Positions 284 through 63,810 are shown, numbered from the stretch's first letter. The stretch: DNA of 64,000 nt from Tetradesmus obliquus (GCA_030272155.1 CP126204.1:3897501-3961500); one strand, 5' to 3'. Numbers and translations: made by a program. The notes: generated from the sequence alone by a model not told the origin.

Positions 284-3200
284 GCCTGCTGTCCCGGCCC
301 CGCTTTGGCCTCTCTGAGCTGCTCAAGGCTGCTGGTGCGCTGCCAGGTGCTGTGCTGACGCCTGCTGACCCCCACAACCTGGAGCCTGAAGCAGGTGCGT
401 CCCGCAGTGCTGCAATTGTTGTTCGGAATGCCGGGTGTGGATTGAATGACATGATGTGCAACAGCCCACTGCGGTTGGCACACGTATTACTTGGTGCAGT
501 GCTTCAAGCGCTCTACAGGGAATTTGAAGTGTCCTGCCTCATGCCTCATTGGTGTGTCCCGTTGCAGGCAAGGCCTACCAACCAGGGGACTACCGGTGCC
601 ACCCCTCCTACCTGGTGCACTGCTTCAAACCCTTTACCAATAGCTGATAGCTTAGGTGTCCCGTCTCCCCCAAGCCTCATTGGTGTGTCCCAAATCTGCC
701 TCATTGGTGTGTCCCATATCTGCCTCATTGGTGTGTCCCATATCTGCCTCATTGGTGTGTCCCATATCTGCCTCATTGGTGTGTCCCGGGACTCACCCGC
801 TGCAGGCAAGGCGTACCAGGGGGACCCTCAGCGGCACCCCTCCTACCTGGTGCACTGCTTCAAGCCTTTCAATGGGGAGACACCCCATCAGCTGTTGTCT
901 GATGCCTGGCTCACGCCTGCTGAGCTGTTCTATGTGCGCAACCACCTGCCGGTGCCAACACAGCTCAAGGCAGAAGCATACAGGTGGGACCTCGATAGAC
1001 ATAGATGACTGTGGCCAGGGGCCTTTGGTTTTCCTTGCTGGAATGTTCCGGCTGCGAGTTGTCTAGCAATGTAACAAAGTACCTGTCACTGCTGCAGGGC
1101 AGCGTAAAATATGAAACATTGTAACTACAGGTGCCATTGTGTGCACCACCACCTGCCGTCGCCCACACAGCTAGCTTGATATTAAGGCGAAAGCGTACAG
1201 CTGTGCCTGCAGGTGGGCAGAAATGGATGCGCGCCCCTGCTTCTTAGCGTACACATAAGTGCGTGCTTGATGTCCTGCTGGTGCCAACAAAATAAATATG
1301 TATTAATGCAGAGGCGTAAGGTGGGTGTGGGAAGAGTTTGTGTGGTTGTGTTGCGTGCTGCTGCTGCAGCGACTTGCATTTGAAAACAGGTGTGATGGTT
1401 CCGTGAGCGACACCGCAAAAGGCGATGTCAGGGGGCTTCTGCTGGCTTTTAAGCCAGCTTGCCTGTTGTAACACACAGGCGTACATAATTTTGTAAGCCA
1501 GCTTGCCTGTTGTAACACACAGATGTACATCAGTATGTACACCTGTGTGTTACAATAGGTAAGCAGGCTAGCGAATAATCCCTCCAGGACATGTGAGACA
1601 GTGCTAGCGTTGACCCCCATGGTGCTGCTGTTCGATCTGCTACAGTTGCCAGCGCTACATGCAATGCCACAATCTTTAGAACGCCGCTCACAGAACAGCT
1701 GTGTGTCACACACCAAACGGTAAGTGTGGGCTTAGGCTGTTGCTGCTGCTGCTGCTGCTGCCGCTGCTGCTGCTGCTGCTGCTGCTGCTGCTGCTGCTGC
1801 TGCTGCTGCTGCTGCTGCTGCTGCTGCTGCTGCTGCTGCTGCTGCTGCTGCTGCTGCTGCTGCTGCTGCTGCTGCTGCTGCTGCTGCTGCTGCTGCTGCT
1901 GCTGCTGCTGCTGCTGCTGCTGCTGCTGCTGCTGCTGCAGGTTTGAGCTGTCAGGGCCCGGCATCAACGGCTCCCCACTCAGCATCAGCCTGGAGGAGCT
2001 GAAGGAGGGCAGGTGGGGATGGCTGTGTTATAACATGCAACAGTAACACACCAGATGCAAAGTAACAAAGTATCATGTTTGTAATAATAGCTGCCTGGAG
2101 GAGCTGAAGTTGGGCAGGTGGGGGCTTTGATGTGATATACCAATTGCAGTAAGCAACAGTACTGCATACCATACAAGTGTCACGTCTCCAGCCAGTGACT
2201 GTGGCAGCAAGCATTCAAAGTGGGAGTGTGCACTGCATGCAGCGGGACACAACAGTAAGCATCGAGCTTACCATGCCTGGGAGAGAGTCAATTGTCTGCA
2301 CAGATGGTCACAGAATGTCAGATCCAGCTACTGTGCCGCAATTGCGGCACTTTGCAAACTGCCTGCACCTGCTGCTGCTTCCTGCACCTTTTCTTATTCT
2401 CAACAGTTGGGGCGCAGTGTCCTCCCGTCAGGCGGTGCTGCAGTGTGCAGGCAACAGGCGCGCTGAGATGGCAGCAGTGAAGCTGGTGGAGGGCCGGGCG
2501 CCCTGGAACCACGGTGAGAGTGCTCAACCACGAACCCTAGGTCTAAACAAAGCCTGCTAAACCTCACCAACTGTGTGGTACAAAAGCAAACGGCTTCATA
2601 GAGGCTGGTGGAGGGGCGGGCGCCCAAAAACCACTGTGAGAAACCTATAACCCAAAGGAGCTCATCCTATACATCTGAGCCCTGAACCCCAAGCCAGGAG
2701 ATTGCACTGACTGCAAGCGGTCCAATACATCCAGGATTTAGTCTGCTGCGCTGTACGCTGCAGAGTTGCAGCGAGGCGTGTAAGCGCTTCTGTTGCTGTT
2801 GGAGTTGCAAGCTGAGCGTCGCAAGGTGCAGTGGCTGATACGATGTGTGCTCTGTGATTGATGTGAGTTCACTGGACATGCAGCCATGTTGCTTGGGCCC
2901 CTGCTGCTGCTGCTGCTGCTGCTGCTGCTGCTGCTGCTGCTGCTGCTGCTGCTGCTGCTGCTGCTGCTGCTGCTGCTGCTGCTGCTGCTGCTGCTGCTGC
3001 TGCTGCTGCTGCCGCTGCTGCTGCTGCAGGCTCCATTGGCAACGCGCTGTGGACTGGGGTTGAGGTGTGGCGTCTGCTGCGCAAGGCAGGACTGCAGCGC
3101 CCCAGTGAAGATGATGCAGCAGCAGGTGCGCGCCTGCAGCAGCAGCGACTGTAAAAGAGATGAGAAGGCTGCACATGGCTGCAGACCGTCAAGAGGTTGT

Positions 3201-6200
3201 TCTAACCTGTCACTGAGGAGTCGAAGGAGTCCTGCATGTTGAGTATGTTTGTGTGCTTGTCGTGCTGACTATGTTCTTTTGAGAGTCACCTGCTGTGCGC
3301 AATGTCAGCGGCAAGGCCTTGCATGCACGGTTGCGGCTGTTTCTGTTGCTGCTGCTGATTCTGGAGCGTTTGCTGCTGCTGCTGCTGCCACTGTCGCTGT
3401 GCAAGTGCCCCATTGTCCTGTGATTCAGCGCAGAACCTCATTGCTGAGAACTGGGATTTCCACGCAGAGGGTGGCAAGCACTGACACTTCCAGCCCACTG
3501 CTGCTGCTGCTGCCACTGTCGCTGTGCAGGTGCCCCATCCTCCTGCGATTGAGCGCAGCACCTCATCGCTGAGGGATGAGACTTCCGCAGAGGGTGGCGA
3601 ACACTGAGACTTCCATCCCATTGCTGCTGCTGCTGCTGCTGCTGCTGCTGCTGCTGCTGCTGTGCTGCAGGCGCCCCATCATCGTGTGATGCAGCGCAGC
3701 ACCTCATTGCTGAGGGCTGGGATTTCCACGCAGAGGGCGGCAAGCACTTTGAGGTGTCCATCCCATTAGGCAAAGCGCTGGACCCTACAGGGGGAGTGAT
3801 GGTTGCCTGGGAGATGAATGGAGCACCGCTGCTGCCTGACCACGGATACCCGGTAAGATCAGTCCTGGGCTGCGTCCTAGTATAAGAGGGTTGATGCAAA
3901 TCCTCCTGCCGCTGTGTGTGCGGCTGGGAGGCTATGGATTGTGGCTGGGCCTACAAAGCTTGAGACTAAGCCCGTGGCTGGGCTAAAAAGCAACTAGAAT
4001 CGACAGACTTGCGCGGGTGGTTTTGATCGCCCCAACAATGAAGGAAAGACTGGGTACAATTACTGCTATCCCGCATCAGCGAAGTAGCGGCTCGCTGGGC
4101 TGGTGCCTGAGGCGGGTTCAGTCTCGTAAATGTACTGTATTGTATTGCAAAAGAGTGTCGATCCCAATGGGCTAAGCGCTTGACACCGCTGGGGGGCGTG
4201 ATGCTTGCCTGAGAGGAGATGAATGGAGCACCACTGCTGCCCGCCACTGACGCTTGTCTGCCGCCATTTTGTTGCTGGTGTTCACTCTGCCACTCTTCTG
4301 CAGCTGCGGCTGGTTGTGCCGGGCTATGTGGGCACCTGCAGCGTGAAGTGGCTCAAGCGGCTCAGCCTGTCACCCAGTTGATGCTGCTGCCTTGCTCCTT
4401 GCCAAGTGCTCCGTGCCTGCACCCAGTTCACATGGCACACACCTCGCCAAATCATCATCATCACATCACATCTGTCAGGCCGCCTGTTCCACGCGGCCTT
4501 ACTATTTCCCACTGCCGAGCCTGTTCTCGCCACGTCTCTGCTCTGCATGGTGTCCACCAGCTGCGGCTGGTTGTGCCAGGTTTTGTGGGCACCCGCAGTG
4601 TGAAGTGGCTCAAGCGGCTCAGCCTGTCGCCCAGTGAGAGCAGCAGCGCATGGCAGCAGAAGGACTACAAGATCTTGCCACAGGCCTACACCACACTGAG
4701 CAAGGCCGACTTTGCATCCATGCCGCCCATCATGGTGAGGTGCTGCTGCGGGTGTTTAGTGTGAACACACCATGCGTAGCTTATTGATTCATTTATGGTG
4801 AGGTGCTGCTGCTGTCGATGTTTTTGTTGTGATACCACATTGAGCAAGGCCGACTTTGCTTCCATGCCACCCATCATGGTGAGGCGCTGCTGCTGATGCA
4901 GCTAGTGTAGGAATAATGACAAGGGATTGGCCGGCCGCACATGGTGATGTCATGCACAGTACGCTGCTCCGTCCCTGGCGATTGCTTCGCATCTTCTTGT
5001 GCAATATTGGCTGCACCTGAGCAAGGCCAAGTTTTGCACATTCAAGCAGTGCGTGTTCAGGAGACCCTGCATGCTCTGGATCCTGCTGCGCCACACCCTA
5101 CACTCTCACAACCGTTTTCTGCGCTGCGCAGGCCATGCCGGTACAGTCTGCCGTCCTGCTGCCAGAGCCAGGCAGCGTCATCAATAACTGCTTGAGCTCA
5201 CATCAATGCTGCTGTGCCACACCCCTATTGCTGTCAAAATGCCCCACGCATTCGCAGGCCATGCCGGTACAGTCTTGCCATCCTGCTGCCAGAGCAAGGC
5301 AGCGTCATTGATGACTGTTTAGGCTGACATCAATGCTGCTGCGCTACACCCCTACTAGTTTTACTGATGTCAAAACGCCCCATGCATCTGCAGGCCATGC
5401 CGGTACAGTCTGCCATCCTTCTGCCAGAGCCAGGCAGCGTCATTGACGCTTCACAGGTTTCAGCAGTATGGTTCAGGGGCTACGCTTGGTGCGGCGGCGG
5501 CCTGCCGATCACGCGTGTTGATGTTTCAGCTGATGAGGGTGCCACATGGGCAACTGCCAAGGTAGTTGAGAGGAAACGCGGCGGCCAGGGGAGTGATGTG
5601 GCGCCAGATCCGAATGCGCCGCCGCAGGTTAGCAGCAGGGCGTGGAGCTGGGTGAAGTGGCAGCTGCCGCTGCAGGTGTGTGCAGGGAGGGTCCTTGTTA
5701 ATGCACTTGGAAGTAAATGTGCTGACTGGAAACGCCACTCAGGGACACTGTTGGCAATGCACCGTGGGTGACTGGAAATGTGTGGTTTGCAATATCAGAA
5801 CTTACCCACCATATCTCAAAATAGTTGGAAGGGAAGGCGGCGGCCAGGGGAGTGATGTGGCGCCAGATCCGAATGCGCCGCCGCAGGTTAGCAGCAGGGC
5901 GTGGAGCTGGGTGAAGTGGCAGCTGCCGCTGCAGGTGTGTGCAGGGAGGGTCCTTGTTAATGCACTTGGAAGTAAATGTGCTGACTGGAAACGCCACTCA
6001 GGGACACTGTTGGCAATGCACCGTGGGTGACTGGAAATGTGTGGTTTGCAATATCAGAACTTACCCACCATATCTAAAAATAGTTGGAAGGGAAGGCGGC
6101 GGCCAGGGGAGTGATGTGGCGCCAGATCCGAATGCGCCGCCTCAGGTTGGCAGCAGGGCGTGGAGCTGGGTGAAGTGGCAGCTGCCGCTGCAGGTGTGTG

Positions 6201-63723: not shown

Positions 63724-63810
63724 ATGCAGCCGGAGTGGCAGATACTTGTGTAGCTGGCCGGGGTGCCAGAGCGCGTCGGAACGAGTGCACTGCAGTGCAC
63801 TGCAGGTGAA
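63724..63810 (+). repeat. 3' echo of exon 63424-63602
   Basis: GCAG..GAGTGGCAGATACTTGTGTAGCTGGCC followed by GGGGTGCCAGAGCGCG and GAGTGCACTGCAG is a decayed copy of the exon end (QILAQLAGVPERADWKECTA), downstream of the intact exon. Confidence 0.9.

Follow-up and report, generated by a model that had tools for sequence, protein, structure and literature searches.

Arrays of half-exon copies in the introns of Tetradesmus obliquus genes carry the mark of protein-coding selection

Why would the introns of a green alga be filled with pieces of the adjoining exons, and why would those pieces still resemble coding sequence? The question is raised by a 64,000-nt stretch of the Tetradesmus obliquus genome (C14:3897501-3961500; hereafter the window), in which partial exon copies—termed echoes here—stand in most introns of the three genes that we modelled. 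The anatomy of these arrays shows an origin by tandem duplication from exon into intron. The echoes do not resemble mere dead debris; they carry the mark of protein-coding selection, and we infer that they are maintained by exchange with functional exon copies. Origin and maintenance together make up the account that we favor, though only tentatively.

Six genes were modelled by hand, three in the window and three chaperonin (CCT/TCP1) genes on contigs C9, C15, and C16 of the searched genome (104.7 Mb, 17 contigs). Exon boundaries were set by reading; open reading frame listings and coding-score scans served for exon finding only, the coding score having been trained partly on wrong-strand loci. 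The window genes comprise 45 exons and 42 introns (42/42 GT-AG), the exons joining into one open frame per gene, and the chaperonin genes 31 exons and 28 introns, all GT-AG and with open frames. Pfam domains align unbroken over many exon junctions (MoCoBD_2, 4-283 of 283; MoCoBD_1, 12-241 of 244). Each exon was searched against its own flanking introns at a threshold of at least 35 bits; the opposite strand of the same introns and up to two distant introns per exon served as controls. Because this threshold misses old or short echoes, the counts are lower bounds.

The window genes hold 112 echoes, with at least one in 36 of the 42 introns. All 44 echoes of a 5′ exon part lie upstream of the intact exon and all 58 of a 3′ part lie downstream; the other ten reach neither exon end (six upstream, four downstream), and none of the 112 is a whole-exon copy. 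Controls for the 45 exons gave no match. The chaperonin genes hold 67 echoes in 21 of 28 introns, with 34/34 5′ parts upstream, 30/30 3′ parts downstream, and three internal copies; controls for their 31 exons gave one antisense match and none in distant introns. Pooled, the side is as predicted for 166/166 end-bearing echoes; a further 13 are internal, and none of the total of 179 is whole. Echoes are 73-100% identical to their exons (mostly 80-98%), carry about 22-159 bp of coding sequence beside their splice site, and often share inner ends within one array; many have their own flanks.

An earlier reading of this DNA from the sequence alone (the sequence-only reading) had described such copies in nearly every intron, with just this sidedness, and these observations stand. 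Its count of about 130 copies by eye in seven genes is plausible, set against 112 in the three window genes modelled. The self-alignment that it proposed as a check agrees: with simple repeats masked and at E ≤ 1e-4, the window contains 165 repeats in direct and 3 in inverted orientation, the copies standing within 1 kb of each other in 164 of the direct ones; a shuffled window contains none at E ≤ 1e-5. Among local repeat pairs in the six genes, both copies contain an exon or detected echo in 233, one copy in 10, and neither in 10. A genome-wide search with two exon halves (the 3′ part of xanthine dehydrogenase exon 10 and the 5′ half of RRM/CwfJ exon 7, both below) returned 5 and 4 matches, all confined to the query's own intron among the best candidates, which are all that the search scores; dispersed repeats were rejected as a source on these two queries. 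Geometry and locality thus bear out the tandem duplication that had been suggested, whose breakpoints fall one within the exon and the other within the intron. Given these two breakpoints and the requirement that one exon stay intact, the observed sidedness follows. Duplications that begin within an exon, cross its splice site and end in the intron, occurring over and over in units mostly of 100-160 bp with a second group of about 183-271 bp, leave arrays of acceptor-bearing 5′ halves upstream and donor-bearing 3′ halves downstream of one intact exon.

Genes were named from Pfam matches (including chaperonin and molybdopterin domains); the finer labels xanthine dehydrogenase (XDH), sulfite oxidase (SUOX), CCT, and chitinase-like are ones that we take to apply. 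The window genes and their echoes are as follows.

22526..42397, minus, including echoes: XDH gene, 27 modelled exons, 26 GT-AG introns
172..7209, plus, including echoes: sulfite-oxidase-type gene (SUOX), 9 exons, open frame
284-394, 806-983, 1941-2012, 2407-2513, 3030-3125, plus: SUOX exons 1-5
3671-3852, 4561-4734, 5394-5675, 6761-6928, plus: SUOX exons 6-9
55657..63795, plus, including echo: RRM/CwfJ-domain gene, 9 modelled exons, open frame, gene running on beyond
55657-55795, 56050-56139, 56505-57053, 57779-58293, 59676-59897, plus: RRM/CwfJ exons 1-5
60202-60570, 62004-62233, 62627-62773, 63424-63602, plus: RRM/CwfJ exons 6-9

Echoes of XDH:
41771..42182, minus: four of exon 1 (42397-42233), 3′ part, downstream, 94.7-97.4% identity
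41203..41380, minus: two of exon 2 (41074-40885), 5′ part, upstream
39863..39903, minus: one of bases 9-52 of exon 4 (39796-39699), upstream
38631..38719, minus: one of exon 6 (39160-38847), 3′
38104..38555, minus: four of exon 7 (38023-37896), 5′ part
37742..37808, minus: one of exon 7, 3′
37344..37491, minus: two of exon 8 (37247-37126), 5′ part
36385..36981, minus: five of exon 8, 3′ part
35894..36229, minus: three of exon 9 (35853-35692), 5′ part
35467..35641, minus: two of exon 9, 3′ part
34170..34960, minus: four of exon 10 (35278-35087), 3′ part, no copy found elsewhere in the genome
34036..34069, minus: one of bases 10-43 of exon 11 (33969-33868), upstream
33262..33762, minus: three of exon 11, 3′ part
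32755..32836, minus: one of exon 12 (33030-32890), 3′
32003..32103, minus: one of exon 13 (32414-32234), 3′
31810..31875, minus: one of exon 14 (31690-31548), 5′
31384..31416, minus: one of exon 14, 3′, donor lost
30817..31245, minus: four of exon 15 (30733-30544), 5′ part
30401..30483, minus: one of exon 15, 3′
30088..30117, minus: one of exon 16 (30285-30193), 3′, donor lost
29837..29952, minus: two of exon 17 (29791-29640), 5′ half, upstream
29372..29574, minus: two of exon 17, 3′ part
29251..29279, minus: one of exon 18 (29186-29070), 5′, acceptor lost
28516..28577, minus: one of exon 20 (28473-28360), 5′
27973..28173, minus: two of exon 21 (27918-27793), 5′ part
27560..27744, minus: two of exon 21, 3′ part
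26927..27134, minus: two of exon 22 (27313-27210), 3′ part
26526..26755, minus: two of exon 23 (26414-26305), 5′ part
25730..26211, minus: four of exon 23, 3′ part
25413..25482, minus: one of exon 24 (25360-25206), 5′
24777..25137, minus: three of exon 24, 3′ part
24175..24370, minus: two of exon 25 (24550-24439), 3′ part
23743..23933, minus: two of exon 26 (23678-23496), 5′ part
23359..23442, minus: one of exon 26, 3′
22526..22966, minus: four of terminal exon 27 (23196-23066), behind the stop codon

Echoes of SUOX:
172..199, plus: one of bases 23-50 of exon 1, upstream
568..634, plus: one of exon 2, 5′
1140..1172, plus: one of bases 128-160 of exon 2, downstream
2093..2117, plus: one of exon 3, 3′
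2601..2634, plus: one of exon 4, 3′
3407..3621, plus: two of exon 6, 5′ part
4155..4250, plus: one of exon 6, 3′, donor lost
4304..4378, plus: one of exon 7, 5′
4834..4878, plus: one of exon 7, 3′
5132..5311, plus: two of exon 8, 5′ part
5822..6193, plus: two recent echoes of exon 8, 3′ part, period 259 bp
7055..7209, plus: two fragments of terminal exon 9, behind the stop codon

Echoes of the RRM/CwfJ gene:
57530..57630, plus: one of exon 4, 5′
58345..59034, plus: five of exon 4, 3′ part
59216..59522, plus: three of exon 5, 5′ part
59974..60122, plus: two of exon 6, 5′ part
60757..61109, plus: two of exon 6, 3′ part
61328..61879, plus: three of exon 7, 5′ half, no copy found elsewhere
62519..62555, plus: one weak echo of bases 30-66 of exon 8, upstream, 36.5 bits
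62933..63370, plus: four of exon 9, 5′ part
63723..63795, plus: one of exon 9, 3′, donor lost

The XDH model is one open frame of 1389 amino acids, N-terminal exon(s) not having been found, with Pfam matches to Fer2_2, FAD_binding_5, CO_deh_flav_C, Ald_Xan_dh_C, MoCoBD_1, and MoCoBD_2; 22 of its 26 introns hold echoes, and further echoes lie behind its stop codon. Exon 3 (40681-40215, minus) carries a long Ala/Ser/Gly/Cys-rich insert between the Fer2_2 and FAD_binding_5 matches. SUOX matches Oxidored_molyb and Mo-co_dimer, and the array of its exon 8 3′ echoes has a self-match of 98.2% over 387 bp, intron included; the RRM/CwfJ gene matches CwfJ_C_1 and RRM_1. CTG/CAG triplet tracts of up to ~68 units occur at window 1736-1938, 2901-3027, 39163-39232, and elsewhere, these three ending right before splice acceptors of modelled exons. 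Introns also contain short-period tandem repeats not derived from exons, such as a 24-bp repeat at window 674-787 and a repeated 10-residue frame at ~7670-7879 of locus L040.

Local duplication had been proposed as a main source of intron growth, and intron length agrees with this, at 287 bp plus 134 bp per echo in the window (r 0.83, 42 introns) and 294 bp plus 135 bp per echo in the chaperonin genes (r 0.78, 28 introns). According to the available portion of PMC5966456, T. obliquus (107.7 Mb, GC 57%, 7.8 introns per gene) has a mean intron of 462 bp, and mean introns in other green algae are 230-302 bp, a range that contains both intercepts. Spacing between successive copies is at least 100 bp in 108 of 112 cases (the exceptions being 84, 88, and, from split matches, 52 and 54 bp), with a lower limit sharp near 100 bp, most values at 100-160 bp, and a further cluster from 183 to 271 bp. 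In the three window genes, the exon-derived portion per array averages 65-70 bp, about half a unit. Unit lengths in multiples of three were rejected, as window spacings modulo 3 are 43/36/33.

The arrays are general in the sense that they recur in independent genes on other contigs, but not every gene has them. Direct repeats occur also at window 8.1-8.9, 9.9-10.1, 14.6-14.9, and 44.0-47.4 kb; none at E ≤ 1e-4 was found at 14.9-22.4 and 47.4-57.5 kb, and the claim therefore fails as one about every gene. Sampling twenty 10-kb stretches, placed at round coordinates across 14 contigs, gave 14 with local direct repeats and six without, so that the window is an echo-rich region. Together with eight kinase loci, these stretches yielded 155 direct and 8 inverted local repeats (shuffled versions: 0 and 2), covering 8% of bases versus 31% in the window. 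Echo density is very uneven between genes: the stretch at window 47400-57500, without local direct repeats at E ≤ 1e-4, has chitin-binding/chitinase-like reading frames, and window 19180-21156, also without local repeats, holds a stop-free frame of 658 amino acids, leucine-rich by eye and apparently of a single exon.

That each echo keeps one splice site and lacks the other, as the sequence-only reading had it, is confirmed: GT is kept in 81/85 and AG in 70/78 (donor counts exclude terminal exons XDH 27 and SUOX 9), and an opposite site in phase is hardly more frequent than in the wrong frames (24/88 vs. 20 and 19; 6/78 vs. 7 and 5). On this background-level frequency, echoes as complete alternative exons were rejected. 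In positional profiles, restricted to alignments reaching the exon end (49/55 and 36/44 in the window; 73/85 and 64/78 pooled), echoes of one array mismatch one another at donor positions +1 and +2 at a rate of 0.00, at +3 of 0.04, at +4 of 0.31, at +5 of 0.06, and over +7 to +20 of 0.54 on average; the acceptor values are 0.05 at -1 to -3 and a mean of 0.59 at -7 to -20. Donor positions +1, +2, +3, and +5 are thus conserved, while +4 and all positions from +6 onward have drifted: what is relevant to splicing is conserved and what lies beside it is not. The tract ahead of echo acceptors is as pyrimidine-rich (0.70) as that of real ones (0.69; intron, 0.51). The intact donor of XDH exon 10 (GTAAAC, 35086-35077, minus) is weaker than those of its echoes (GTGTG, GTGCG, GTGGG, and GTGTG). 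In the three window genes, A at donor +4 has a frequency of 0.27 in echoes (n=51) and 0.55 in real donors (n=42), as if echoes were somewhat weaker.

The echoed coding sequence is constrained as well. Exon-echo differences in the window fall at codon positions 1, 2, and 3 in 132, 100, and 418 cases. Over the six genes, the difference is 0.046 at 0-fold and 0.243 at 4-fold sites, and the ratio of non-synonymous to synonymous divergence (dN/dS) is 0.203 (bootstrap over 59 exons, 0.174-0.242; highest of 300 resamples, 0.257). For echoes neutral from birth, the exon adds almost only synonymous changes, and the expected ratio is therefore near 0.5; dead echoes simulated on the same codons gave 0.45-0.56 under mutation bias from none to threefold. 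Mutation bias was accordingly rejected as the cause (GC-to-AT pressure of 1-3 fold simulated). Echoes without any non-synonymous difference number 40 of 179, versus 14.8 expected. The signature is alike in 5′ and 3′ echoes (dN/dS 0.208 and 0.185), and the ratio of 0-fold to third-position differences across bins of synonymous divergence is 0.31, 0.21, 0.26, and 0.20. GC content at third codon positions in the window is 0.782 in echoes and 0.777 in exons, and intron GC is 0.54. The view that echoes are merely tolerated and rejected by splicing, which the sequence-only reading had taken, is not supported, given this ratio and a donor consensus conserved amid drift.

What keeps the halves coding-like? 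Exon and flank have not simply aged together. Alignment to the intact flank, scored for 162 of the 179 echoes, shows clear homology in 40 (z at least 4) and intermediate scores in 37 (z 2-4), while the flanks of 85 cannot be aligned (z below 2). Divergence at 4-fold sites keeps to 0.22-0.25 across the four classes of flank divergence, including the well alignable one (mismatch 0.14). This independence argues that exon halves do not simply have the age of their units. The 3′ echo of XDH exon 12 is 97.6% identical over 82 bp beside a hardly alignable flank, and the 3′ echoes of exon 10 reach 96.5% over 85 bp in the exon part, with the intron part again hardly alignable. Differences between exon and echo are clustered (combined z -4.7, 105 echoes), and informative site pairs agree in 61/111 cases within 15 bp versus 30/105 beyond (permutation p 0.0115; 24 arrays with at least three echoes, one lacking usable columns). 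These patterns are consistent with exon-derived halves that keep swapping sequence with functional exon copies instead of persisting as isolated dead copies; the probable routes are gene conversion over short tracts or unequal exchange, in which putative diverged haplotypes would also take part. Each echo would then mostly be a lately retired real exon end, selected while an exon and drifting since as an echo; we would summarize its history as lengthy selection and then a brief neutral period. Crossovers inside the half-exon should make synonymous divergence change steadily as the splice site is approached, and no such gradient was seen.

Several results weigh against this account of exchange. 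Divergence at 4-fold sites differs between arrays beyond chance (chi-square 160, 71 df), and a three-sequence runs test for mosaics was not significant (z -1.4, 26 arrays). In toy simulations, conversion within one chromosome gave a ratio of 0.59-0.76 and array duplication/deletion one of 0.56-0.67, versus 0.19 observed; these runs used fixed site classes, were not fitted, and reached a 4-fold divergence of 0.33-0.60 (observed, 0.24). With models thus not matched for divergence, in-cis gene conversion alone and cycles of array duplication and deletion were both rejected as causes of the low dN/dS. Simulated exchange with haplotypes 20% synonymously different came near, at 0.237, only under the highest of the rates tried (0.37-0.42 at lower settings), and such haplotype diversity is hypothetical. 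In complete codons with a single difference, stops are fewer than expected (5 vs. 9.5) and missense changes milder than random (BLOSUM -0.07 vs. -0.45). Changes private to one echo favor third positions (0.035, 0.027, and 0.084 by codon position), also in the echo nearest its exon (13/532, 6/542, and 20/433), and echoes at least 94.5% identical to the exon have a dN/dS of 0.216. A neutral last phase alone predicts neither this private bias nor that ratio, which together point to some continuing selection on echoes. Direct selection on echoes, when simulated, yielded 0.10-0.25; among these models, the data would be matched by direct selection or by frequent exchange with diverged haplotypes.

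The serious rival is accordingly direct use, in which echo splice sites would themselves take part in splicing—for instance where long introns are removed in steps or in nested fashion, or in regulated unproductive splicing—and half-exons would be kept as recognizable exon ends. From the sequence features, we consider this unlikely, though by no means negligible. It would account for the conserved donor and acceptor consensus, the pyrimidine-rich tracts, and the private third-position bias, and the simulated range under direct selection includes the observed value. It would also suit the order of sites: echo donors precede echo acceptors in 16/16 window introns holding both, and the innermost donor-acceptor distance over the 42 window introns has a median of 215 bp, versus 530 bp for the whole intron. 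However, splicing alone does not need constraint at the level of codons, and the same signature appears in echoes behind stop codons, which are expected to be neither spliced nor translated (two genes, six high-scoring segment pairs only; dN/dS 0.247, 18 synonymous and 14 non-synonymous differences). Three of the four XDH exon 27 echoes extend to the end of the exon, and all three retain its TGA. Nor are frame-breaking indels avoided, 33 of 38 not being multiples of three; the 28 of 179 echoes with a frameshift gap still have a dN/dS of 0.254. Offsets between echo and exon are not clearly in frame (modulo 3, 28/14/20 downstream and 12/20/18 upstream), and in-phase complementary sites are not above background. 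The indels that break the frame, together with the echoes lying past stop codons, lead us to prefer exchange.

Should echoes be neutral instead—tolerated by-products of tandem duplication, rejected by exon definition and decaying from birth—their geometry and locality, the disregard of indels and frameshift gaps for the reading frame, and the background level of second splice sites would all be as observed. The coding constraint would not: dN/dS lies far below the simulated range even with biased mutation, and echoes free of non-synonymous change are in excess. A splice consensus kept beside randomized flank, and exon halves 96-98% alike next to hardly alignable flanks, likewise speak against decay from birth, which we regard as improbable. 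Echoes might also be remnants of complete, formerly functional duplicate (mutually exclusive) exons that have lost one half, which would explain a long selected and then a short neutral phase; yet no echo is whole, inner ends are often shared within arrays, and the 3′ half would have to be lost upstream and the 5′ half downstream in 166/166 cases, and this reading has very little to recommend it. Assembly artefact or chance can practically be dismissed, for although near-repeat arrays are generally hard to assemble, no specific support was found, identities range widely and many echoes have their own flanks, control matches were 0 (window) and 1 (chaperonin), and the same slope of length on echo number recurs in independent genes.

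Where introns get their sequence has long been asked; in the genes modelled here, length past ~290 bp follows the number of exon-half copies. The arrays pose a testable problem, namely how spliceosomes face many strong, coding-flanked extra sites and why such sites are conserved, and gene predictors and RNA-seq mappers may misread echo loci. It is conceivable, though we would not yet count on it, that coding-competent half-exon arrays, each member with one putatively working splice site, stand beside most exons of at least some genes and are selected via stepwise splicing or recombinational rebuilding of exon ends. In that case an exon would be no fixed unit but whichever member of a local pool is in use at present, and the introns would serve as the pool's archive.

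Known systems share some of these features. Intronic minisatellites, or variable number tandem repeats, consist of head-to-tail units, and echo arrays resemble them in this and in unit size (~100-150 bp). Minisatellites are independent of exons, whereas repeat pairs here nearly always include exon or echo in both copies (233, against 10 with one and 10 with neither), and in echoes the intron part is often decayed beside an exon part that remains conserved. Introner elements are, like echoes, a genome-wide source of intron sequence, but are made up of a single family whose copies are dispersed; introner copies lie at many unlinked loci, and the two echo families searched occupy one intron each. 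Mutually exclusive exons are whole copies with both splice sites, and 0/179 echoes are whole. Dead exon relics share the frame-blind indels (33/38) but should decay neutrally, unlike echoes with a dN/dS of 0.203 and splice sites kept in 81/85 and 70/78.

Stwintrons, nested spliceosomal introns with more than one donor or acceptor per intervening sequence (available portions of PMC12403724 and PMC5639578), resemble echo introns in having several such sites inside one intervening sequence; a difference is that echo sites carry ~22-159 bp of coding sequence, and any stepwise splicing of an inner and an outer intron would be hypothetical here. The Rogers model, exemplified by ATP2A1 (cited in the available part of PMC4974935), likewise enlarges non-coding gene sequence by local tandem duplication. 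There, the duplicated segment is exonic and AGGT-bearing, GT and AG both come from it, and a new intron is gained; in the present arrays, units span a splice site already in place and enlarge an intron already there, and each echo combines one end of an existing exon with a single splice site, within introns between intact exons or behind terminal exons. Half-exon arrays in most introns of several genes, with coding and splice signatures conserved, were not found described in our searches of the open-access literature (outside which lie most subscription papers and bioRxiv), where we met single-gene precedents only, and the word "exon" is absent from the main text of PMC5966456 as far as its available portion extends. 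The elementary event is already known, as a duplication over an intron-exon boundary in a single gene of potato (PMC4974935, in the part available). In that RNA-dependent RNA polymerase (RdRp) gene, one tandem duplication across the boundary created one new, spliced intron; in T. obliquus, 179 copies in six genes stand in arrays on both sides of their exons, with no complete new exon among them.

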